Shown here one piece after another: positions 53,085-64,000 of a stretch of 64,000 nt of DNA (positions within the stretch are counted from its first letter, which is position 1; every line of letters begins with the position of its first letter). Under the pieces are notes generated by a model. That model searched no databases and was not told the origin of the DNA. It saw nothing but the letters and a program-made list of their open reading frames with translations. The translations under genes and the position numbers were made by a program. Source of the DNA: Basidiobolus meristosporus CBS 931.73. Its lineage: Eukaryota; Basidiobolomycota; Basidiobolomycetes; Basidiobolales; Basidiobolaceae. The stretch lies in assembly GCA_002104905.1 (NCBI GenBank), contig MCFE01000238.1, positions 55,638 to 119,637 on the forward strand, read 5' to 3'.

Positions 53085-54054
53085 CTTGAGGAAAGTTTCT
53101 TCGATGCAAAATATCTACTTCCCGGGTGCTGTATTTATGTGTATATTTAAAGTGCCTTTACCAATAAAAACTAGAGTCGATTGTATTCTTTCGAACATTT
53201 CTAAATTGTCAAGACCGAATACAACACCAGTGACGCGTGTGATCAGGAGATCGGTTTTACAAAGGTAAACTGGGAAAATAAGCTTCGGCCCCAGACCGAC
53301 AATTGATACCTCTAACGTTCCGATAAATCTGACTTATTCGTAGCAATCCATCTTCTAGAAGACGCCAACACCCTACCTGCGTGAGAATTGACAACTTGGA
53401 TTTCCTATGATCTATCATGATTCGTCCACTACTATATGAAATCATGCCTATTCAAGAAATGCAGCCATCCAATCCTTTGACATCTACTGCCAGTATCAGG
53501 GAATATTTCAATATGCAGCCACCACTATTGTGGTCTATGTCCATCTCTCAGCGTCTGGATTATGCTAGGAATCTCAGTGTCTTGGTGCACTTATTCACTA
53601 TATGATGGAAGATCATTACAAATGCGATCAACTAATCCAGCTAGCACTTTCTCTCACCATTGGATACATCTTAAGTCCTATCTAGTATATGGTATCTGAT
53701 GTATAGTATAGAACTTGAGAGTATCTAACTTTGCATTGAGCTTGGGCATGTAATTCATGGGGAATATTTGACTGTTGCTGAATTGGCCATGATTTGTTGG
53801 CCTTAGGGTTAGGGTTCTAGTGCTTTATTGGGAAATTTGCACATGAAGTGCAATCTTGAAATAGGACAAAGTCATATGAGTACAGCAACTAATATAAGAA
53901 GATGACAACTACTTTGCCAGTAAAAGGGGTGAAGGAAACTGTAAAAGCTATAATGAAAAAGGTGTGGACACAAGAAATTTACAGTACCATTCATTACCCT
54001 ACACTGCAAGTAAGCTAAAGGAACATAAGGGGAAGCTTTAACATAAGGAACTAA
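53085..54054. other. Transition to subtelomere
   Basis: About 1 kb with no gene. The first telomere-like tract of the subtelomere (TTAGGGTTAGGGTT at 53803-53816) lies here, followed by ~240 bp that may be a decayed retroelement remnant. Confidence 0.45.
53803..53816 (+). repeat. Interstitial telomeric repeat
   Basis: Two-and-a-third TTAGGG units, the innermost telomere-like tract of the array. It marks the likely old chromosome end onto which later elements were added. Confidence 0.7.
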
Positions 54055-54231
54055 AGGGTTAGGGTAGGGGAGGGAAAGTCACCAAGTTAGTGAAATCTTT
54101 ATTTAAGCTAAGAACTAACCTAAGTACAAATAAAGAAGCCAATTAAGAGGTCTAGAACCTCTCCAATAAGTAATCTAATTTATGTTTTGTTTCATCTCTA
54201 ATGTTTGTTTCAATGAAATAAAGCTCATCAG
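54055..54231 (-). mobile_element. 5'-truncated LINE family A remnant (3' UTR only)
   Basis: About 160 bp nearly identical to the 3' UTR of the long family A copy (57153-57325), sense on the minus strand. It starts at a telomere-like AGGGTTAGGGTAGGGG tract and ends where the next element's TTAGGG junction begins. The break point (CAGGGG-T) shares bases with TTAGGG. Confidence 0.8.
54079..54093 (-). promoter_or_regulatory. LINE 3'-terminal hairpin, A remnant
   Basis: TCACCAAGTTAGTGA. The outer four pairs are intact; one inner pair is lost relative to the full-length copy. It sits directly inside the telomeric junction. Confidence 0.6.
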
Positions 54232-54249
54232 GGGTTAGGGGGGAGATGG

Positions 54250-54263
54250 TCACCAACAGGTGA
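54250..54263 (-). promoter_or_regulatory. LINE 3'-terminal hairpin, truncated B copy
   Basis: TCACC-AACA-GGTGA, a 5-bp stem, identical to that of the long B copy at 61095. Confidence 0.65.
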
Positions 54264-54297
54264 AATCTTTATTCCAGTTGAAACAAAGAAGCCAGTG

Positions 54298-55116
54298 CTA
54301 CTGTTGTAACTTTGATACAAGAGTGTGTAGCTGAGGGGAATTTGTAGGTAAGTATACAAGAAGTGATGATAGTTCTTCAGTGCTCAAGACACTGTTCAGT
54401 GGGAAGGGGGGTAGCAAGTGAGGTAAGAATGATTTGCAAACAACAACAATGAGGGGAATATGATAAGGATTGATATTCAACATAAAGGGAGTGTGCTGCT
54501 TCAGATATTGCTCCCAAAGGTTGGTCAAGTACTTCAGGTAGGCCAGCTTGGGTTTTTCTGACTGCAGAATATAGTGAGCAAACTTCTTGAGTTCAGGATC
54601 TCCAAGTATAGTTCTCCAGCATGAGCCAGGTGTAGTGTGGTGTGTTCTCTTCCAGGTCTTGATCAGTGGGTTATTGTAGTGGTGAAGTCTGAGATATAAT
54701 CTGGTTCTAAGGTAGAGAAGTCTGAGCTTATAGGGCATAAACCCAAAAGCACCAAGAATAGCATGTCTGTAGGGGCATTCAGGCAAATGAGGCACCAAGG
54801 AGGTAATGCACCATTCTGCAAACTTGTCAAGCTTAGTGCAGTCTCTAGAAGTAAGAGAGAGAAGTGGTAAGCCAAATTCCAGGACAGGGAAGACAAACTG
54901 CTTGAGTAGAAGGAGGCAGCTGGGAGCTGAAGCTGTAGGAGGAGTAACAGCCAGTAGCTTGTGGAGTGCCTGTCTTGCCAGGATAATTCTCTTCTTCAGG
55001 TGTGCTCCAGAGTCTAGTCCAGTAGGAAGGAAAGGAAAGCCAAGATATGTAGCAGAAACCTGAGCAGGTAGGGTGGAGTTCTCCAAGTTGATGGGAGAGC
55101 CCAAAGGTACTGTCTT
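54298..55116 (-). pseudogene. LINE B reverse transcriptase C-terminal fragment
   Basis: Open for 272 codons but with no ATG at its head. It starts at KTVPLGSPINLENSTL, which is internal to the long B ORF2, and runs to the same C-terminus (PQLHTLVSKLQQ). It lacks the endonuclease and RT catalytic core, so it cannot be autonomous. About 95% identical at protein level to the other copy by eye, with scattered substitutions (for example K-I-R to K-L-R), which indicates a recent relative rather than an exact duplication. Confidence 0.85.
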
Positions 55117-55557
55117 AGGGGGGAGGGAAAGTCACCAAGGTAGGTGAAATCTTTATTTGATTTCAGACAAGTCTAACTACAAATAAAGAAGCCAGCTGGG
55201 AAATAGAAGATTCCCAAAGTAAACACTAAGCTGAATATGAATAAATCTAAGCTAAAGTTAAGGCAGTATCCCAAAGTACACTGGAGTTCAGGTTTGTGGG
55301 GGAGTGAAGTAGATAAGCTTGAGAGATATAATAATCTTTCAGGAAGTGGGTAACAGCAGGTGAAGGGGAGTTTTTGATAAGTGAAGTGAATCTTGAGAGC
55401 AGAGATTCCTCTAATGAGAAGATCTTGTAAACTGGAGAATCAGGAAACTCTTTAAAGGCATGGTCAGTAGGTTCCCAGTAGAACTGGTCTGAGACATTTT
55501 GAGAGAATTGTGTAGCAATACTTTTGTCAAGTACTACCTCCAGAGTGTGATGGTTGA
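55117..55557 (-). mobile_element. 5'-truncated LINE family C copy
   Basis: A third element type. It starts at the telomere-like CTTAGGGGGG (from 55114), carries the shared hairpin and an AAATAAAG stem, then a 3' UTR and coding remnant unlike A or B. It ends at TAGGG, where the direct-repeat block begins. Confidence 0.65.
55132..55147 (-). promoter_or_regulatory. LINE 3'-terminal hairpin, family C
   Basis: TCACC-AAGGTA-GGTGA: the same 5-bp stem as family B with a different 6-nt loop. Confidence 0.65.
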
Positions 55558-55563
55558 TAGGGT
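55247..55563 (-). pseudogene. LINE C ORF C-terminal fragment
   Basis: An open stretch of ~105 codons without an ATG at its head, ending at a TAG. It includes the readable segments FYWEPTDHAFKEFPDSP and PAVTHFLKDYYISQAYL. It is not similar to the A or B reverse transcriptase tails, so it is either the tail of a more distant LINE ORF2 or another ORF type. Its position directly 5' of a family-style 3' UTR is why I call it element-derived. Confidence 0.5.
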
Positions 55564-55947
55564 GTAGGTGTTATAGCAAGGGCTAGGAAAAGGTTAGAAG
55601 AGCAGGGGGTCTGGGGGACACAGTCCCCCAGAAAATAAAAAAGCAGGGGGTTTGGGGGATGCAATCCCCCATACTGCTCCCATACTCTTTAAATTCCCTT
55701 TGGATTACTTCTCTCTCATTCTTGGTTCTAGTCCCTTAAGGTTAGAATTCCTGCTCCTAACCCATATCACCCTAACCATAAATATTTTTACCCTACAATT
55801 GGCACATTGTCTGCTCATATAGTGGGCATGTCTGGGCCCATATTTGTCTCCCTATACTGTCCATATGCTCTGTATAAGTCTTGATGACTATTTAATTAAT
55901 AAATTGTTACTTTTAATGTATATCTAATAATTAATGGGATTCATCCC
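55558..55947. repeat. Left ~390-bp direct repeat
   Basis: Starts TAGGGTGTAGG and ends GGATTCATCCC; matched by 56769-57152 at roughly 90-95% identity. It contains two GC-rich hairpins (55611-55631 and 55653-55671) and no coding frame. Confidence 0.85.
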
Positions 55948-56204
55948 AATCTGGCCACAATCCCATATTTTGATAAGCTTTGGGCACCATAAATTGCGCG
56001 GCCCTAATATGATAAAAAAATTCATGGCCAATACAAATTTTCTGTAACCCAATTGCTTTTACCAAAATATAAATTGTATCCCAAAGTTCAATATATATTA
56101 TGGCTATAATAGAAACTTTATTTGACACCATTGCAACTACTACTTATGTTCTATGTGCACATGTATCCCGCAGGAATTGTAAAACTTAGCCACGTGGTAC
56201 AAAA

Positions 56205-56743
56205 GTGCTTTTATTTTTCATCATGATAGTTTTACATGAGTTCCTAACGCACTTTGAAAGTACGCAGTAGCCATACCCCAACAGGTTTTAAGGAAATCCA
56301 CTAGCTATGTCTACTTGTGTCTAGTGGGAGCCATCAATCATCAGCTGTGCAATACTGAAATGCTTTTATTTTTCATCATGCTAGTTTTGTATAAATCCCT
56401 AACGCACTTTCATAGTGCGCGGTAACCATACCCCAACAGGTTTTAAGGATACCCACTTGCTACGTTTACTTGTGTCTAGCAGGAGTTATCAATCATCAGC
56501 CGCGTGGTAATAAAGTGCTTTTATTTTTCATCATGATAGTTTCACATGAGTCCCTAACGCACTTTCATAGTGCGTGGTAACCATACCCCAACAGGTTTTA
56601 AGGATACCCACTTGCTACATTTACTTGTGTCTAGTGGGAGTCATCAATCATCAGCCGCACAGTAATAAAGTGCTTTTATTTTTCATCATGATAGTTTTAC
56701 ATGAGTCCCTAATGCACTTTTATAGTGCGCGGTAACCATACCC
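56205..56743. repeat. 155-bp tandem repeat, about 3.5 units
   Basis: Units start near 56205, 56360, 56515 and 56670, an exact 155-bp period. Each begins GTGCTTTTATTTTTCATCATG and holds a GCACT...AGTGC hairpin and an AACCATACCCCAACAGG block. Units differ by scattered substitutions. It lies between the two long direct repeats. Confidence 0.85.
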
Positions 56744-56768
56744 CCAGAAAGTAGTGTGGATGCTTACT

Positions 56769-57152
56769 TAGGGTGTAGGTGTTATAGTAAGGGCTAGGAA
56801 AAGGTTAGAAGAACAGGGGGTCTGGGGACGCAGTCCCCTAGAGAATAAAAAGCAGGGGTTTGGGGATGCAATCCCCCATACTGCTCTTATACTCTTTAAA
56901 TTCCTGTTGGATTACTTTTCTCTCATTCTTGGTTCTGGTCCCTTAGGGTTAGAATTCCTCCTCCTGACCCTTATCACCCTAACCATAAATATTTTTACCC
57001 TACAATTGGCACATTGTCTGCTCATATGGTGGGCATGTCTGGCCAATATTTGTCTCCCTATACTGTCCATACGCTCTGTATAAGTCTTGATGACTATTTA
57101 ATTAATAATTGTAATTTTTAATGTATATCTAATAATTAATGGGATTCATCCC
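56769..57152. repeat. Right ~385-bp direct repeat
   Basis: Second copy of the 55558-55947 repeat, in the same orientation. It abuts the CCCTTAGGGGG junction of the long family A element. Confidence 0.85.
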
Positions 57153-57168
57153 TTAGGGGGAGGGAAAG

Positions 57169-57183
57169 TCACCAAGTTGGTGA
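57169..57183 (-). promoter_or_regulatory. LINE 3'-terminal hairpin, long A copy
   Basis: TCACCAA-G-TTGGTGA, a perfect 7-bp palindromic stem immediately inside the telomeric junction. Confidence 0.7.
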
Positions 57184-57336
57184 AATCTTTATTTGAGTTA
57201 AGAACTAATCTAAGTACAAATAAAGAAGCCAATTCAGAGGTCTAGAACCTCTCTAATAAGTAATCTAATTTATGTTTTGTTTCATCTCTAATGTTTGTTT
57301 CAATAAAGTAAAGCTCATCAGGGGTAAATATAAAAT

Positions 57337-60090
57337 TCAGGGGTTTTGGGGGAGTACAAATTGTAGATGTTTCTGATCAATATAATCCAAGACTGGAACC
57401 CAGCCTGGGATTAGGTGCAGTAGGAAAGGTGTATGGACTTGTAAGTAGCTCTGCCACATAGATCTTAGATGGTCCTGAGCCAGTAGTCTTGGTTTCTCAG
57501 CTTTTTGAAGTTTTGAAGCAAGCTCTGTTACTACAGCAGAGCCAACCAGGGTGTGCCAGCAAGAAGATTTCAGGGAGGAGTCAGATTGAAGCCATTGTTG
57601 GATGGAGGGGTTATGTGATTTCTGAAGTTTGACTAGGAAGGAAGCACGGAGATAGATCATTTGGATTTGGTATGGGTAGAACCCAAAGGCTCCATTAGTT
57701 GCATGGATATAGGGAGATACTGGAAGATAAGGTACCAAGGATCTGATACACTGATGGAGAAACTTATCCAGGCGGTGAAGTTCTCTGGAGGTTAGGGGTA
57801 TAATGTGGAGACCAAATTCAAGTACTGGCAGCACATACTGCTTCAGAAGTATAGGGATCTTTTGAATTGGAGTGTCTGGAGTGACTACTACCAGAAGCTT
57901 TTTGAGAGCCTGTTGGGCAAGACGGATCCTATTATTCAGGTGGAGCTTGGAGTCAATCCCATGTTGACAAAACGGCAGACCTAGATATATTGCAGTTTGT
58001 TGTGGCAGAATGCTAGTGTTCTGTATAGTTGTAGTGCATCCTATTGGGACTGTCTTGGAAATTGAGAGTGAGAGGTTGTTGGCAGCCAAGTACTTCTCAA
58101 TGATGGCAGTGTCTGCTATGGGATTAGGAGTAGCAATCTTGATATCATCCACATAGAGAGTTAGTAGTGGATAGGGAGAATCTGGTGAGGGGCCTTTTGG
58201 AAATAAAGGAAAGTCATGTAGGAATATCACAAATAATAAGGGACCTAGTACAGATCCTTGGACTACTCCATTTGGAACCTCATAAGTCTCTGATGTACAA
58301 CTTGGATGCAAAATTTTGGCTGAGTTCTCACAAAATAGAGAACGTACAAGAAGGGTCATTGGTAGTGTGGTAACTGCTAATAGCTTTCTCCAAAGCAGAG
58401 CTCTGTCCACAGAGTCAAAGGCTTTAGTAATGTCAAACAGAATGGTTGGCAATGAGAATTGAAGTGAATGATCATGGCTTAGCACTACAGCCATATCCAA
58501 GGAGAGTTTGGGCAAGAAGCCAAACTGAGAAGGATGGAATGGATATAGTTGAGATTGCAAGGATTTTGCTATTATAAGCTCAAAGATTTTCCGGCAGGTT
58601 GGTAGGAGTGAAACTGGCCGGTAAGAACCTGGGAGTGAGTGTTTCCCCTTCCCTTTGTATAAGGGTATTACATTTGCCTGTGACCAGGCCTTTGGGGTAG
58701 TCACTTGTTGGGCACAGATAGAGTAGAATGGGAGAAGTAAGTGACTCATTTTGGAGTAGCACACCCGGAGTAGATCGTAGGTAATCAAGTCATGTCCAGG
58801 TGCAGTATTTGCAGGAAGCTTCTTTAAAATTTTCTCCAGAAGCTTTGCTGAAACCAAAATTGGAGATGTTGTACTGCTAGATATGTCACCAGTATGGTAG
58901 AAAGGAGGAGTGGGATGCACGGTTGAATCAAAGAATATAGGGGCCAGTTTGTCTGGTGATGGTATACTCCTTGCTTGGGGTCTCATGGCTTTGTATACTC
59001 TTGATATGGACCTTGTGGTGGCATTCATATTTACTAAGGGCAAGGTATCCATGATATGAGCCCATAATCTAGTATGCTCAGTGATCTGTAGTGACTTGGA
59101 GTAGGAGATTGCGCTTTCCAGGAGGTTCTGTGTTTTTGGGTTAGGGAAACATAGGTAGCTGGAATTTAAGGCAGAAATGATGGATTTCCATTTAAGTTGG
59201 TTTGCAGATGGCTTTTGGTAGGACTTGGTGGGCAGGGCCAGACAGCCAGTGATTATGATGAAATGCTGGTAAAATAGCCATAATGCATTTACATCATCAC
59301 AAATCCATGCAGGTAAGCTGGGAAATGCATATTCTGTAAGCAAGGACAGGTAGTTGGCAAAGTCCTGTGTCTGTGATACTGAAGCTTTGGCTGGCAGGAT
59401 TGTAAATGGCTGAAGAAGGGTGCCAATTGGTAGGTTTTTTCTGGCAGCAATGATAATATGTATTGGCTTGTGATCAGATTTCTCTAGTGAACCACAGCTG
59501 ATATCCTCTGGAATGCTTGTAACCTGGTGGATGTACTGTAAGGCAGCTGGAGTGGCTGTTACCCAGTCAACACAACGTTGAGCTTGCTGAGTGTTTACAG
59601 TGACCAGATGGTTTTGTCGGAGGAACTTTGTAAAGTGCTCCTCTCGGGTTCTAAGTCTGGATGAAATAGTGGTGATATTTTCAGGGTGGGGAATATTTAT
59701 ATCTCCCACTACCATACAAGGGATTGATGAGCTGTTAATGAATTCTGATGTGGCCAAGAAAATTGCCAGTGTTATGGAGTTAGACAGAGATGGAGGGAGA
59801 TAGATAATAATGGCTACTATAGTTGGAAGTGTTAGAGCATAGCAGTAATACTCATAGATGATGGATACATTTGCTGAGGGTGCAAGCTTAGAAGATGAAA
59901 GAGCAACAAGTGCCATTGAGTGAGCTGGAAATTTTGGGTGAGCAGATGAATATGCATTCAGTCTAGAGGGAAGTTTTGGCAACTTAACATCAATTAGTAG
60001 GAGCAAGTAATATTCCTTTTTCAGTAAGTTTTCTAATTCAGCTACAGTTGGAGTGATGGAGTTGCAATTGAGTAAGAGTATGTTCTGTAG
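57337..60090 (-). CDS. LINE A ORF2: AP-like endonuclease and reverse transcriptase
   Basis: 917 codons open after the UGA at 60091-60093. The endonuclease/exonuclease/phosphatase domain is first: LLLNCNSITPTV at its start, VVGDINIPHPEN and SDHKPIHII (catalytic Asp-Asn and Asp-His). The usual Gln-Glu pair reads as IDVK, so the metal-binding Glu is replaced. The reverse transcriptase follows: LPLYKGKGKHSLPGSYRPVS, DITKAFDSVDRALLW, NGVVQGSVLGPLLFVIF and the catalytic YVDD (58147-58158). No RNase H domain. The first in-frame ATG (59916) lies ~58 codons in, after the domain has begun, so translation by readthrough from ORF1 is likely. The frame is fully open, which suggests recent activity. Confidence 0.9.
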   Translation of the reverse strand, partial: LQNILLLNCNSITPTVAELENLLKKEYYLLLLIDVKLPKLPSRLNAYSSAHPKFPAHSMALVALSSSKLAPSANVSIIYEYYCYALTLPTIVAIIIYLPPSLSNSITLAIFLATSEFINSSSIPCMVVGDINIPHPENITTISSRLRTREEHFTKFLRQNHLVTVNTQQAQRCVDWVTATPAALQYIHQVTSIPEDISCGSLEKSDHKPIHIIIAARKNLPIGTLLQPFTILPAKASVSQTQDFANYLSLLTEYAFPSLPAWICDDVNALWLFYQHFIIITGCLALPTKSYQKPSANQLKWKSIISALNSSYLCFPNPKTQNLLESAISYSKSLQITEHTRLWAHIMDTLPLVNMNATTRSISRVYKAMRPQARSIPSPDKLAPIFFDSTVHPTPPFYHTGDISSSTTSPILVSAKLLEKILKKLPANTAPGHDLITYDLLRVCYSKMSHLLLPFYSICAQQVTTPKAWSQANVIPLYKGKGKHSLPGSYRPVSLLPTCRKIFELIIAKSLQSQLYPFHPSQFGFLPKLSLDMAVVLSHDHSLQFSLPTILFDITKAFDSVDRALLWRKLLAVTTLPMTLLVRSLFCENSAKILHPSCTSETYEVPNGVVQGSVLGPLLFVIFLHDFPLFPKGPSPDSPYPLLTLYVDDIKIATPNPIADTAIIEKYLAANNLSLSISKTVPIGCTTTIQNTSILPQQTAIYLGLPFCQHGIDSKLHLNNRIRLAQQALKKLLVVVTPDTPIQKIPILLKQYVLPVLEFGLHIIPLTSRELHRLDKFLHQCIRSLVPYLPVSPYIHATNGAFGFYPYQIQMIYLRASFLVKLQKSHNPSIQQWLQSDSSLKSSCWHTLVGSAVVTELASKLQKAEKPRLLAQDHLRSMWQSYLQVHTPFLLHLIPGWVPVLDYIDQKHLQFVLPQNP

Positions 60091-61065
60091 TCAGGCAGAC
60101 TCTGAGGTTGCCTGTTCCTGCTGAAACTCTTGCACTGCCCTTTGTAAATTTCCAGAATTATTCCACAACTCTTCAAATGGAGCTTGCGTAATGTCTTTCA
60201 GGATTCTAATTGCTTCCTCTTTCAAGAAGTAGGCCACATCATAGGTTGGAGCCTGTTTCTTAATGGCAGCAAAGAAAGCCATAATTGCCATGTGAGCTGG
60301 GGGCTTGTTGAATATTCCTGGCTCAGTGTCCATTGACTCTGGTGGAATGATTGTGAATTTGGTAGGCACCCAGTTTAGATTTTTTGCCAGATACTTAGTC
60401 AATGCAGTGGAGAAGTTTCTGTCTACAATCATTTCTAGGATCTTTCCTCTTCTCCAAGCTAGGTTAACAATTTTTGAAGTGTCAATATTTAGAGAGCGGA
60501 ATGTATGTCTGATGTTTGATATAGTAGTCCATGGAACATTGGCAAAGTATAGCAAGGACCAATTCTGGAGCTGAGGTAAGTTTGCTGGAGGCTTATAGGT
60601 AGACTTTCTGGCAGGTTGTGTGGTAGGCTTTAGTGTTTCCAAGGTAGCAAGTTGTGGTTGAGACTTTTTGGAATTACGTATGACTTTGGAAAGAATTCTG
60701 CCAGCAACTGTGTCAGGAATGTTAGTACTCATTGATGGTGCAGGGCCTGGCTCCTGGTACTGCTTTTGTAGAATACTTGAGTATGTCTCTTTTTGTTTTC
60801 CTTTATCCAATGTGCTATGCCTTGGAACGGGATTTTGGGGAATAGAGACTTCAGGTATCAACTCTGTGGTCTGGTGATTGTCCAACATTGTTGCTTGAGC
60901 GTCCAGCTTTTCCTCTAAGATTTGAACTCTCTGCTTAAGCTGATCATTTGATGCTATAAGTGTTGCATTGTTTGGAGCCAGGTCAGGTGTTGAGTTATGA
61001 AGGCAGGTTGAGCAGCGTTCTAACTCCTTGGTTTGGTCATCCAACTTTTCTTCTAAGGTTTGAAC
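60091..61065 (-). CDS. LINE A ORF1, nucleic-acid-binding gag-like protein, 5'-truncated
   Basis: About 324 codons ending in a UGA followed by CUA. There is no ATG at its head: the frame runs straight out of CCCTAA telomeric repeats, so the N-terminus is missing. Coiled-coil heptads appear twice (RVQTLEEKLDDQTKELERC, RVQILEEKLDAQATML), then a disordered Pro/Thr/Lys segment and an RRM-like fold (NWSLLYFANVPWTT, SKIVNLAWRRGKILEMIVD). This coiled-coil plus RRM-like order is that of LINE ORF1 proteins, which trimerise and coat the element RNA. It shares its reading frame with ORF2. Confidence 0.82.
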   Translation of the reverse strand, partial: VQTLEEKLDDQTKELERCSTCLHNSTPDLAPNNATLIASNDQLKQRVQILEEKLDAQATMLDNHQTTELIPEVSIPQNPVPRHSTLDKGKQKETYSSILQKQYQEPGPAPSMSTNIPDTVAGRILSKVIRNSKKSQPQLATLETLKPTTQPARKSTYKPPANLPQLQNWSLLYFANVPWTTISNIRHTFRSLNIDTSKIVNLAWRRGKILEMIVDRNFSTALTKYLAKNLNWVPTKFTIIPPESMDTEPGIFNKPPAHMAIMAFFAAIKKQAPTYDVAYFLKEEAIRILKDITQAPFEELWNNSGNLQRAVQEFQQEQATSESA

Positions 61066-61067
61066 CC

Positions 61068-61085
61068 TTAGGGTTAGGGTTAGGG
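61068..61085 (+). repeat. Telomeric repeats at the A/B junction
   Basis: Three exact TTAGGG units joining the truncated 5' end of element A to the 3' end of element B. They are either an old chromosome end or the templated tail of B. Confidence 0.85.
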
Positions 61086-61094
61086 GGGAGACAG

Positions 61095-61108
61095 TCACCA
61101 ACAGGTGA
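61095..61108 (-). promoter_or_regulatory. LINE 3'-terminal hairpin, long B copy
   Basis: TCACC-AACA-GGTGA, a 5-bp stem ten bases inside the telomeric junction. Confidence 0.7.
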
Positions 61109-61142
61109 AATCTTTATTTCAGTTGAAACAAAGAAGCCAGCG

Positions 61143-63767
61143 CTACTGTTGTAGCTTTGATACAAGAGTGTGGAGCTGAGGGGAATTTGTAGGTAAGTTA
61201 ATAAGAAGTGATGATAGTTCTTCAGTGCTCAAGACACTGTTCAGTGGGAAGGGGGGTAGCAAGAGAGGTAAGAATGACTTGTGAACAACATTAATGAGGG
61301 GAATGTGATAAGGATTGATATTCATCATAAAGGGAGTGTGCTGCTGCAGATATTGCTGCCAAAGGTCTGTCAAGTACTTCAGGTAGGCCAGCTTGGGTTT
61401 TTCTGACTGCAGAATATAGTGAGCAAACTTCTTGACTTCAGGATCTCCAAGTATAGTTCTCCAGCAGGAGCCAGGTGTTGTGTGGTGTGTTCTCTTCCAG
61501 GCCTTAATCAGTGGGTTGTTGCAGTTGTGAAGTCTGAGGTATAATCTTGGTCTAAGGTAGAGAAGTCTGATCTTATAGGGCATAAACCCAAAAGCACCAA
61601 GAATAGCATGTCTGTAGGGGCATTCAGGCAAATGAGGCACCAAGGAGGTAATGCACCATACTGCAAACTTGTCAAGCTTAGTGCAGTCTCTAGAAGTAAG
61701 AGAGAGAAGTGGTAAGCCAAATTCCAGGACAGGGAAGACAAACTGCTTGAGTAGAAGGAGGCAGCTGGGAGCTGAAGTTGTAGGAGGAGTAACAGCAAGT
61801 AGCTTGTGGAGTGCCTGTCTTGCCAGGATAATTCTCTTCTTCAGGTGTGCTCCAGAGTCTAGTCCAGTAGGAAGGAAAGGAAAGCCAAGATATGTAGCAG
61901 AAACCTGAGCAGGTAGAGTGGAGTTCTCCAAGTTGATGGGAGAGCCCAAAGGTACTGTCTTTGCAATGGAAAGCTGGAGATTATTCTTCTGCAGATACTG
62001 GTGGATGGTCTGGGAGTCTTGTTGCACATTGGAGGAGGATATTCTGATGTCATCAGCAAAGAGAGTAACCAGGCAGTCAGCTGAGAGTCTTGGGAAATCA
62101 TTCAGGAAGATGGCAAACAGTATAGGACCAAGCACAGAGCCTTGAACCACTCCATTAGGAACTGAGAACACAGCTGATTGCTCACTTGGGTGCAGAATTC
62201 TTGCTTGTGGATCCAGAAACAGAGACCTGACAAGGAGGGTGAGAGAGGTACTGGAGAAGCATTGCAACTTGGACCAAAGCAGATTTCTGTCAACTGAATC
62301 AAAGGCCTTAGTAATATCAAACAGAACAGAGGGATACTTGCACTGGAGAGAGTGATCTTGGCTAAGTATGACTGCATATTCCAAGGAGAGGCCAGGAACA
62401 AAGCCAAACTGTGCAGGATGAAACTTGAGAGAGTCAGAGTAGAGCTCCTGAGCAAGCAGAAGCTCAAACACCTTTCTGCAGGTGGGCAGCAGAGATATTG
62501 GCCTGTAGGAGCTAGGATCCAGGTGCTTTCCTTTACCCTTGTACAGTGGCAGAACATTTGCAAAGGACCATTCCTCAGGAGTAGAAAGCTGGGCTGAGCA
62601 TTGCTGAAACAGTGGAAGCAGAAGTGCAGACATGGCCTTGGTACTAGTCTTCAGAAGCTCATAGGAGATTGTGTCCACACCTGGAGCAGTAGAGTTGGGA
62701 AGCCTCTTGAGCACATAATGGATTCTCCTTTGATCAAGTGCAAGTGGGATGGGCAGAGTCTTGAAGTCAGGATGAAAGCCAGGAGTTGAGTACTGCCTTG
62801 TAGAGAAGAAGATGTTAGCCAGCTGTTCTGTTGAAGGTAACTTCCTGGAAGAGGGCCTCATTGCCCTGTAGAGTCTTGATACTGTTCTTGTTATAGAGTT
62901 GGAAGATTGCAGAGGCAAGGAACTCATAATATGATCCCAGAGCTGAGTATGCAGAGTGTGGTGAATTGCCTTGGAGTGGTGTATTGCTGTCAGGAGGAGT
63001 TTCTCTGTTTTTGGGTTAGGGAAGCTCAGGTAGCTTTGTTGCAGGGCTGAAACAATGGATTCCCATTTTCTTGAGGTAACAGCAGTAGTCTTGCATGGCA
63101 GTGAGAGGGAGGCAGACACCAGAATCAGATGCTTCACAAAGAGCCAGGCAAAGTTGAGATCATCTGGCAGAGAAAGTAGCAAACTGGCAAGCTTCAAGTA
63201 GTTCCCAAAGTCTTTCTTCTGATTCTTGGTAGCTTTGTGGGTGGACACAGTAAGTTTTGGCAGCTTCTTCTTCACAACTGGTTGCATAGAAAGGGACCAG
63301 GCTGGGTGGTCAGAGGCTCTCAAGGATCCTAGCTCAGCTCCAGAGAATTGCTTAACTTCATTCACAAAGTAGAGGGCAGCAGCAGAAGGGCAGATCCAGT
63401 CAACACATCTTTTCTCAGATTGAGCACCTAGTGCTAGCAGATGGCTTTCTCTCAGGAAGTTCAGTAGGAATGTAGACCTTGGCTTCATTCTTGCAGTCAG
63501 AGTAGTCTTGTTCTCAGGATGGGGAATGTTGAGATCTCCAAGCAAGATAACAGGTGTTGATATAGATTGTTGGTATTGCTGAACCTTCTGGCATATAACT
63601 TGCACTTCCTGAAGGGCTAGACTTGGAGGCAGATAGCAGAGCACCAGACTGATAGTTGGCAACTGGAGAGCAGCACAGTAAGGGGAGTAAAGAGGAACAC
63701 AGAGCTGAGGAGTATTGATGGTAGAAGAGATGAAGCAGATAGAGGAGGTATTCTTTGTTCTAGGAGT
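61143..63767 (-). CDS. LINE B ORF2: endonuclease (partial) and reverse transcriptase
   Basis: About 874 codons, open to the 5' truncation point. The endonuclease is missing its N-terminal third but retains ILLGDLNIPHPEN and a degenerate RASDHPAWS. The RT core reads LPLYKGKGKHLDPSSYRPIS, DITKAFDSVDRNLLW, NGVVQGSVLGPILFAIF and the catalytic FADD (62049-62060). The order and the C-terminal Cys/His-free thumb match family A (about 45% identical by eye). No RNase H. The frame has no internal stop, so the copy is young, but it lacks a start codon and cannot be autonomous as it stands. Confidence 0.88.
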   Translation of the reverse strand, partial: TPRTKNTSSICFISSTINTPQLCVPLYSPYCAALQLPTISLVLCYLPPSLALQEVQVICQKVQQYQQSISTPVILLGDLNIPHPENKTTLTARMKPRSTFLLNFLRESHLLALGAQSEKRCVDWICPSAAALYFVNEVKQFSGAELGSLRASDHPAWSLSMQPVVKKKLPKLTVSTHKATKNQKKDFGNYLKLASLLLSLPDDLNFAWLFVKHLILVSASLSLPCKTTAVTSRKWESIVSALQQSYLSFPNPKTEKLLLTAIHHSKAIHHTLHTQLWDHIMSSLPLQSSNSITRTVSRLYRAMRPSSRKLPSTEQLANIFFSTRQYSTPGFHPDFKTLPIPLALDQRRIHYVLKRLPNSTAPGVDTISYELLKTSTKAMSALLLPLFQQCSAQLSTPEEWSFANVLPLYKGKGKHLDPSSYRPISLLPTCRKVFELLLAQELYSDSLKFHPAQFGFVPGLSLEYAVILSQDHSLQCKYPSVLFDITKAFDSVDRNLLWSKLQCFSSTSLTLLVRSLFLDPQARILHPSEQSAVFSVPNGVVQGSVLGPILFAIFLNDFPRLSADCLVTLFADDIRISSSNVQQDSQTIHQYLQKNNLQLSIAKTVPLGSPINLENSTLPAQVSATYLGFPFLPTGLDSGAHLKKRIILARQALHKLLAVTPPTTSAPSCLLLLKQFVFPVLEFGLPLLSLTSRDCTKLDKFAVWCITSLVPHLPECPYRHAILGAFGFMPYKIRLLYLRPRLYLRLHNCNNPLIKAWKRTHHTTPGSCWRTILGDPEVKKFAHYILQSEKPKLAYLKYLTDLWQQYLQQHTPFMMNINPYHIPLINVVHKSFLPLLLPPFPLNSVLSTEELSSLLINLPTNSPQLHTLVSKLQQ

Positions 63768-63781
63768 AGAAAAAAAAAAAA

Positions 63782-64000
63782 GGGTAGGGTTAGGGTTAGG
63801 GTTAGGGTTAGGGTTAGGGTTAGGGTTAGGGTTAGGGTTAGGGTTAGGGTTAGGGTTAGGGTTAGGGTTAGGGTTAGGGTTAGGGTTAGGGTTAGGGTTA
63901 GGGTTAGGGTTAGGGTTAGGGTTAGGGTTAGGGTTAGGGTTAGGGTTAGGGTTAGGGTTAGGGTTAGGGTTAGGGTTAGGGTTAGGGTTAGGGTTAGGGT
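63782..64000 (+). repeat. Telomere, (TTAGGG)n
   Basis: About 36 tandem TTAGGG units after a single variant GGGTAGGG at the inner edge. The G-rich strand runs 5' to 3' toward the window end, so this is a right-hand chromosome end. The array is still in repeat at the last base. Confidence 0.98.

Follow-up and report, generated by a model that had tools for sequence, protein, structure and literature searches.

What are the elements that lie stacked between TTAGGG tracts at a chromosome end of the fungus Basidiobolus meristosporus CBS 931.73, and how did they come to be there? The question is raised by a stretch of 64,000 nucleotides (assembly GCA_002104905.1, contig MCFE01000238.1, positions 55,638 to 119,637 of the forward strand; hereafter the window), whose last base is also the last base of the contig (C467, 119,637 bp, in a genome of 89 Mb). 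We propose that the array in the window probably belongs to a telomere-restricted community of retroelements at Basidiobolus chromosome ends, comprising two families of self-sufficient long interspersed nuclear elements (LINEs; A and B), an element that codes for an open reading frame 1 (ORF1) protein only (C) and an element resembling the short interspersed nuclear elements (SINEs; D), all of which would be primed from the chromosome end and then capped by telomerase.

The array and its counterparts at other contig ends

In the window TTAGGGTTAGGG has 37 overlapping matches, against 0 in 100 shuffles. The array was parsed by tail signature and by BLAST against element copies from other contig ends, and from the centromere side it runs E, B (~170 bp), A (~880 bp), C (~450 bp), F, F, B (3.9 kb), A (2.7 kb) and telomere, with the following features (APE-type, of the apurinic/apyrimidinic endonuclease type):

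53803-53814, plus strand: two TTAGGG units, the proximal border of the array
53815-54054, minus strand: E-family piece, 5'-truncated, with its own 3' end (AATAAAGCACTAGAA in sense); ~92% identical pieces at C45 and C32
54067-54235, minus strand: B-family LINE, 5'-truncated, ~170 bp; 95.3% identical to B, tail at 54078
54238-55116, minus strand: A-family LINE, 5'-truncated, C-terminal part of ORF2; 95.0% identical to A
55113-55559, minus strand: C-family ORF1-only element, 5'-truncated; 95.3% identical to C, match to C ORF1 at 55250-55558 (94% of amino acids)
55560-57151, no strand assigned: F block, a subtelomeric repeat (not a LINE) present twice in succession, each copy starting after GGG or TTAGGG
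57156-61067, minus strand: B-family LINE, long copy, 5'-truncated within ORF1
57337-60090, minus strand: B ORF2, N-terminal APE-type endonuclease and reverse transcriptase, 917 amino acids, first codon not ATG
60091-60093, minus strand: in-frame TGA, then CTA, between B ORF1 and ORF2
60094-61067, minus strand: B ORF1, modelled coiled coil and RRM-like domain, open at the truncated 5' end
61068-61085, plus strand: three TTAGGG units separating B from A
61083-63773, minus strand: A-family LINE, long copy, 5'-truncated within the endonuclease; 98.6% identical to A
61086-61118, minus strand: common 3' end of the long A, a stem-loop (UCACC..GGUGA in RNA) and a C-rich terminus abutting TTAGGG
61143-63773, minus strand: A ORF2, partial endonuclease and reverse transcriptase, 5'-truncated
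63785-64000, plus strand: terminal telomere, to the contig end; as a tandem repeat, (TTAGGG)36.8, it extends over 63781-64000

The initial annotation of this DNA had described LINE pieces, all sense on the minus strand, between TTAGGG-like tracts at 53803, 54055, 54232, 55114, 57152 and 61068, with the telomere at their end. The tracts and the terminal telomere are indeed in the sequence, and the common 3' tails, which begin at 54078 (B), 54249 (A), 55131 (C), 57168 (B) and 61094 (A), all lie on one strand. The composition of the array has to be revised in part: the pieces named as truncated B, truncated C, long A and long B are present, and A and B are LINEs, but C is an ORF1-only element, 55560-57151 is an additional non-LINE block (F), and the supposed A remnant at 53815-54054 is a separate repeat (E).

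A search for the element 3' ends reveals arrays at other contig ends too. The exact tail GTCACCAAN{2,5}GTGAAATCTTTATT occurs 1,536 times in the genome (1,410 on the plus and 126 on the minus strand; reversed-pattern controls 0 and 0), while exact A-type tails number 660 (613 and 47) and exact D-type tails 416 (393 and 23). Among the first 100 tails listed, 35 fall in ten contigs longer than 160 kb whose right part was read, and 35/35 lie within the last 22.2 kb. The N-terminus of the A endonuclease was scored at no fewer than 150 places out of 255 candidates, on more than 100 contigs.

We examined 17 stretches, consisting of 15 contig right ends (for C14, C47 and C58 up to a point short of the terminus) and a further two array stretches. 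They hold 67 forward tails (at most 4 edits), all of which turn their 3' end away from the telomere on the right, and no reverse tails at up to 2 edits. Tail-independent BLAST to A-D, with families assigned by matches of at least 40 bp and pieces tallied at no less than 100 bp and 90% identity, gave 78 matches, all in one sense. The elements of A-D are arranged head to tail; their 3' end faces the centromere and is kept, and their 5' end is cut at many places.

Could such arrays have spread mainly by recombination, as in break-induced replication between ends, rather than by new retrotransposition? The arrays of the MoTeR elements are reshaped by recombination (PMC7367193), and the F block and pieces of long terminal repeat (LTR) elements recur at several ends of the present genome. 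We regard this as quite improbable here, however: the 5' starts of 37 A pieces fall at 34 different positions, 73 of the 78 pieces keep the 3' end (A 37/39, B 6/7, C 13/14, D 17/18; of the other five, three are cut by the edge of the stretch read and two are split by an insert), and the families succeed one another in differing orders at different ends.

That the arrays are an assembly artefact is hardly credible. In its favour stands the strand bias of three consecutive TTAGGG units, found 8,002 times on the plus and 103 times on the minus strand, which is probably an assembler effect that left contig left ends without their telomeres. We read the bias in this way because C424 (312,558 bp, possibly a whole small chromosome), which has kept its left telomere, shows the mirror arrangement there, with (CCCTAA)n and then D elements in mirror orientation; the telomere and element counts are therefore likely underestimates. 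Near its right end, the last part of which is outside the stretch read, D elements have the plus orientation. Element arrays of opposite sense at the two ends of one contig, distinct arrays at different contig ends, and open ORF2 frames of 922 amino acids in many A copies all speak against an artefact.

Families A to D and their common 3' end

The initial annotation had suggested an AP-endonuclease-type telomeric LINE system with several co-existing families, and A and B give it support. Both have an ORF1 followed by an ORF2 composed of RVT_1 with an N-terminal EEP endonuclease, as is the rule for APE-type LINEs. Family A has a full size of ~4.6 kb (C3:164.6-169.2 kb) and, judged by eye, a zinc-finger-like N-terminal stretch in ORF1; across the aligned part its ORF2 is 47% identical to that of B. 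The annotated protein K493DRAFT_357826 of the same strain (P0061) is the C-terminal part of an A-family ORF1, 94.8-99.3% identical to five A copies. In the predicted endonuclease fold the TRAS1 endonuclease is the first-ranked match, with other APE folds close behind. The endonuclease is under purifying selection, its ratio of nonsynonymous to synonymous differences (pN/pS) being 0.30, with 0.45 for the reverse transcriptase; these values come from non-independent pairs and leave out A segments shorter than 150 amino acids or below 85% identity, as well as any pair poor in synonymous sites. Relatives in public assemblies (P0002-P0005, P0055-P0060) are 44-64% identical in ORF2 and 41-52% in ORF1, which makes it probable that elements of this group also occur outside the present assembly.

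Seven copies (6 A, 1 B) extend across the junction between the two reading frames, and it has the same form in all of them: a TGA, then CTA, ORF2 continuing in the frame of ORF1. Five of the copies have 100/100 open codons ahead of the TGA (in one of these, L029, the stretch is mostly telomere repeat), and the frame of two A copies is broken farther upstream. In the genome 144 copies carry the sequence that follows the stop, and 136 of them also have the exact TCTGCCTGACTACC. UGA-CUA is a favourable context for stop-codon readthrough. Since ORF2 is in frame with ORF1 across UGA-CUA, it is likely, as far as the reading frames tell, that ORF2 is made by UGA readthrough of ORF1. This context is not printed in the excerpt of PMC5009743. 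Re-initiation at a non-AUG codon would be another route; in B the first ORF2 ATG is codon 59, and in the five A copies with enough sequence to show it, it is codon 142, past most of the endonuclease.

Family C codes for an ORF1-like protein of 242 amino acids, followed by the tail (L034), and has no ORF2; the protein is 25-35% identical to the ORF1 of A and B. A second lineage of the same type at C45, 44.6% identical to C in amino acids, likewise lacks ORF2. Within C the pN/pS is 0.32 (44 non-independent pairs), meaning that purifying selection has preserved the protein. C is thus telomeric, with ORF1/Gag alone and no reverse transcriptase, and is HeT-A-like in form, making a helper-like protein only.

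Family D, of which ten full copies were aligned, is ~525 nucleotides long, and the full copy examined has no coding frame of 80 amino acids or more. Its 5' end is fixed, with 13 of 17 pieces beginning at the same place and 214 exact 5' ends in the genome as against the 416 exact 3' tails. The head of D carries an A box (TAGCCTTGTGG) at position 12 and a B box (GGTTCAAATCC) at position 55, 43 nucleotides apart; the B box matches at 11/11 positions, and the A box at 10/12 of the usual pattern or 10/11 of a pattern shortened by one base. Short, non-coding, fixed at the 5' end, LINE-like in its 3' tail and with RNA polymerase III boxes at a tRNA-like spacing, D resembles the tRNA-type SINEs, and we call it SINE-like; a tRNA, however, is detected in it neither by the Rfam covariance models (up to E 10) nor by ARAGORN. 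It could instead derive from a LINE by internal deletion or as a chimera, as MoTeR2 does from MoTeR1, with which it has 860 bp at the 5' and 77 bp at the 3' end in common (PMC7367193), and the boxes of D could have arisen by chance. The missing tRNA match fits such an origin, as does the finding of an equally good box pair in 4 of 3,000 shuffled versions of the complete D consensus. We nevertheless find it doubtful, for what D has in common with A, B and C is limited to ~40-60 bp at the 3' terminus, and the boxes lie at the 5' end of D, where no shuffle of the first 100 nucleotides (0/20,000) gave as good a pair (both counts with the shortened A-box pattern).

What unites A-D, the families recognised so far and at least four in number, is a 3' end that reads, in RNA sense, AAUAAAGAUUUCACC-loop-GGUGAC-..CCC and is followed by the telomere. 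The loops differ among the families in sequence and length, and the stem is nearly invariant, for which reason covariation is uninformative. None of the 67 tails has a poly(A); they end in a C-run without an A-run.

Proposed priming at chromosome ends

In 62 of the 67 tails TTA stands directly ahead of the G-run, as expected of insertion beside telomeric repeats in the manner of TRAS and SART. Under these 62 parsed tails there are no further full TTAGGG units in 45 cases, one in 11, two in 5 and three in 1 (imperfect repeats further left were not counted as units, and one of the 67 tails has no parsable G-run). The G-run is mostly 6 long in A and 4 in C, lengths consistent with TTAGGG plus 1-3 element-coded G. 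The terminal TTAGGG tracts at seven complete contig ends, by comparison, measure 170-235 bp, a range that leaves out the tract of C1 (122 bp, read 98 bp short of the end). With 0-3 units beneath the elements and tracts of such length at the ends, the insertions do not appear to be spread over terminal-length tracts, which means that short or eroded ends were used or that the tracts shrank later. A telomerase RNA-binding domain (TERT) is found at C880 in two pieces, both above the family cut-off.

We favour the inference that a short end terminating in ...TTAGGG-3' serves as the primer, whether nicked or not, and that telomerase follows. The reverse transcriptase of A and B, made through UGA readthrough of ORF1, would recognise the common stem-loop in all four RNAs, and synthesis of complementary DNA (cDNA) would be primed by the 3'-OH of the G-strand at a short or eroded telomere, or at a nick made there by the endonuclease. 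The cDNA, usually halting short of the RNA 5' end, would become the new G-strand end, and its extension by telomerase would seed the next element. The terminal A copy of the window has a run of 12 A at its 5' junction (63770-63781), where the L033 and L034 copies have 4 T in sense; it may reflect cDNA synthesis slipping on U ahead of telomere addition, or a homopolymer sequencing error.

The elements could also insert as TRAS and SART do, with the endonuclease nicking within ordinary long TTAGGG arrays, target-primed reverse transcription following and the tracts shrinking later by slippage or recombination. The endonuclease looks intact, has TRAS1 as its first predicted fold match and shows the low pN/pS given above; moreover, the TRAS1 endonuclease likewise nicks the G-strand, cleaving between T and A of TTAGG (PMC7265360), which would give the orientation seen. 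Nonetheless we judge this mode unlikely, as 62/62 parsed tails retain at most three further units where complete terminal tracts measure 170-235 bp, and poly(A), which SART1 requires (PMC7265360), is absent from all 67 tails.

Several observations weigh against a telomere-restricted community built by end-priming: (i) The endonuclease is under purifying selection though end-priming would not require it, and end-priming and nick-priming are indistinguishable from the sequence. (ii) Interstitial TTAGGG could have shrunk after insertion. (iii) Five of the 67 tails have no TTA ahead of the G-run, and the homopolymer of the G-run hides the exact border between element and telomere. (iv) The endonuclease catalytic set N, E, Y, D, N, D, D, H is kept save for the canonical Glu, which is Asp in all three covering rows of this group (the B copy of the window, P0003 and P0004) and, by eye, in A copies; among the 18 alignment rows with a letter at this position, 14 have E and 4 have D, the fourth being P0027. 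(v) The TERT gene is found only in part, one piece with an internal TAG. (vi) The left ends of C27 and C80 that carry reverse tails (L037, L038) do not begin in telomere repeats, although they neither back nor contradict the reading that left ends were lost.

A more far-reaching version of the proposal, which we put forward tentatively and would not expect to hold in full, is that telomerase and a retroelement consortium jointly extend the ends. The gag-only member would then be HeT-A-like by convergence, and D, as far as the literature searched goes, would be the first telomere-restricted SINE; all members would be mobilised by UGA-readthrough LINEs that prime on ...TTAGGG-3' and so heal eroded telomeres.

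Other sequences share the arrays and the window. E pieces elsewhere (C45:18203-18439 and C32:8782-8906, ~92% identical) both follow TTAGGG; E has a fixed 3' end beside TTAGGG without the common stem-loop, and a long copy (C45:18203-19070) has, by eye, ~86-bp repeats on its 5' side. The first F copy of the window has 155-bp tandem repeats and the second, ~375 bp, starts at 56774; F-type blocks are also seen at C32:12221-16772 and C45:5366-9861. On the plus strand after the 155-bp repeats, F has open frames, with weak Kelch matches and, in one frame, the start of a SNF2 domain (E 7e-9). F may be an element that captures telomeres, or else a segment that break-induced replication has copied. LTR pieces of the gypsy type (RNase H, integrase) and the copia type (RVT_2) lie inside arrays at C2:13425-15775 and C90:10425-13418 (coordinates within the stretches read) and in C14, C25, C36, C45 and C58, and the next element truncates several of them at their telomere-facing edge. 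Non-telomeric DNA can also precede an element; in C2, for instance, a truncated gypsy-type element (RNase H, integrase) is separated by a single TTAGGG from the element after it. A Sec7 gene in the window is 52% and 49% identical to Basidiobolus ranarum proteins.

Comparison with known telomeric elements

A 2023 survey of telomeric retrotransposons names insects, Giardia, Chlorella, the anole, rotifers and Drosophila, and for fungi, in the excerpt, MoTeR1 only (PMC10088271). Among the matches listed in a literature search on retroelements of Basidiobolus and early-diverging fungi and on telomere-specific SINEs, judged by title and the start of the abstract and with few subscription papers covered, no description of such a system was found.

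The fungal elements MoTeR1/2 and the FoTeRs of Fusarium are telomeric as well (PMC7367193, PMC12857005). The MoTeRs share with the Basidiobolus elements their head-to-tail arrays, the telomere-ward 5' end, the short tracts between copies, which range from half a repeat to over 20, and the presence of MoTeR2 as a non-autonomous partner (PMC7367193). They differ, like the FoTeRs, which belong to the REL/CRE group (PMC12857005), in having a C-terminal restriction-like endonuclease (REL), whereas in A and B an APE-type endonuclease is N-terminal and ORF1 is separate; the REL motif itself was not scanned for. With TRAS and SART (R1 clade; silkworm and other insects) A and B have in common that they are APE-type LINEs with a reverse transcriptase in telomeric repeats, with TRAS1 as the first match of the modelled fold. 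SART1, however, ends in poly(A), in contrast to the stem-loop and C-run that abut TTAGGG in A-D, and the excerpt of PMC7265360 mentions neither a gag-only nor a SINE-like partner, both of which Basidiobolus has. In stringent-type LINE/SINE pairs the SINE carries the 3' tail of the LINE, often with a stem-loop, as D does; unlike D, no telomere restriction is described for them in PMC3747384, whose text lacks the word telomere.

The likeness to HeT-A, TART and TAHRE of Drosophila lies in the mixed array, the centromere-ward 3' ends and a Gag-only family that borrows reverse transcriptase, HeT-A being without pol (PMC10088271, PMC5537684), of which C is the formal counterpart. Drosophila is without telomerase, whereas Basidiobolus has a telomerase domain and TTAGGG repeats. 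Endonuclease-deficient Penelope-like elements (Athena, Coprina) are telomere-associated and are thought to be primed by chromosome ends. They have a Penelope-type reverse transcriptase and no endonuclease, in contrast to the LINE reverse transcriptase with endonuclease of A and B.

The Basidiobolus elements would thus form an APE-type telomeric LINE system in an early-branching fungus, where MoTeR1 (PMC10088271) and the FoTeRs described in 2025 are of the REL type, and an in-frame UGA-CUA would be an unusual route to a LINE ORF2. For specialists the surprising part is that a fungus with a telomerase domain has members of the gag-only and SINE-like kinds. Such telomeric elements occur here outside Drosophila and alongside telomerase, making it testable now whether retroelements help in telomere maintenance, and how a retroelement community evolves ahead of the loss of telomerase.

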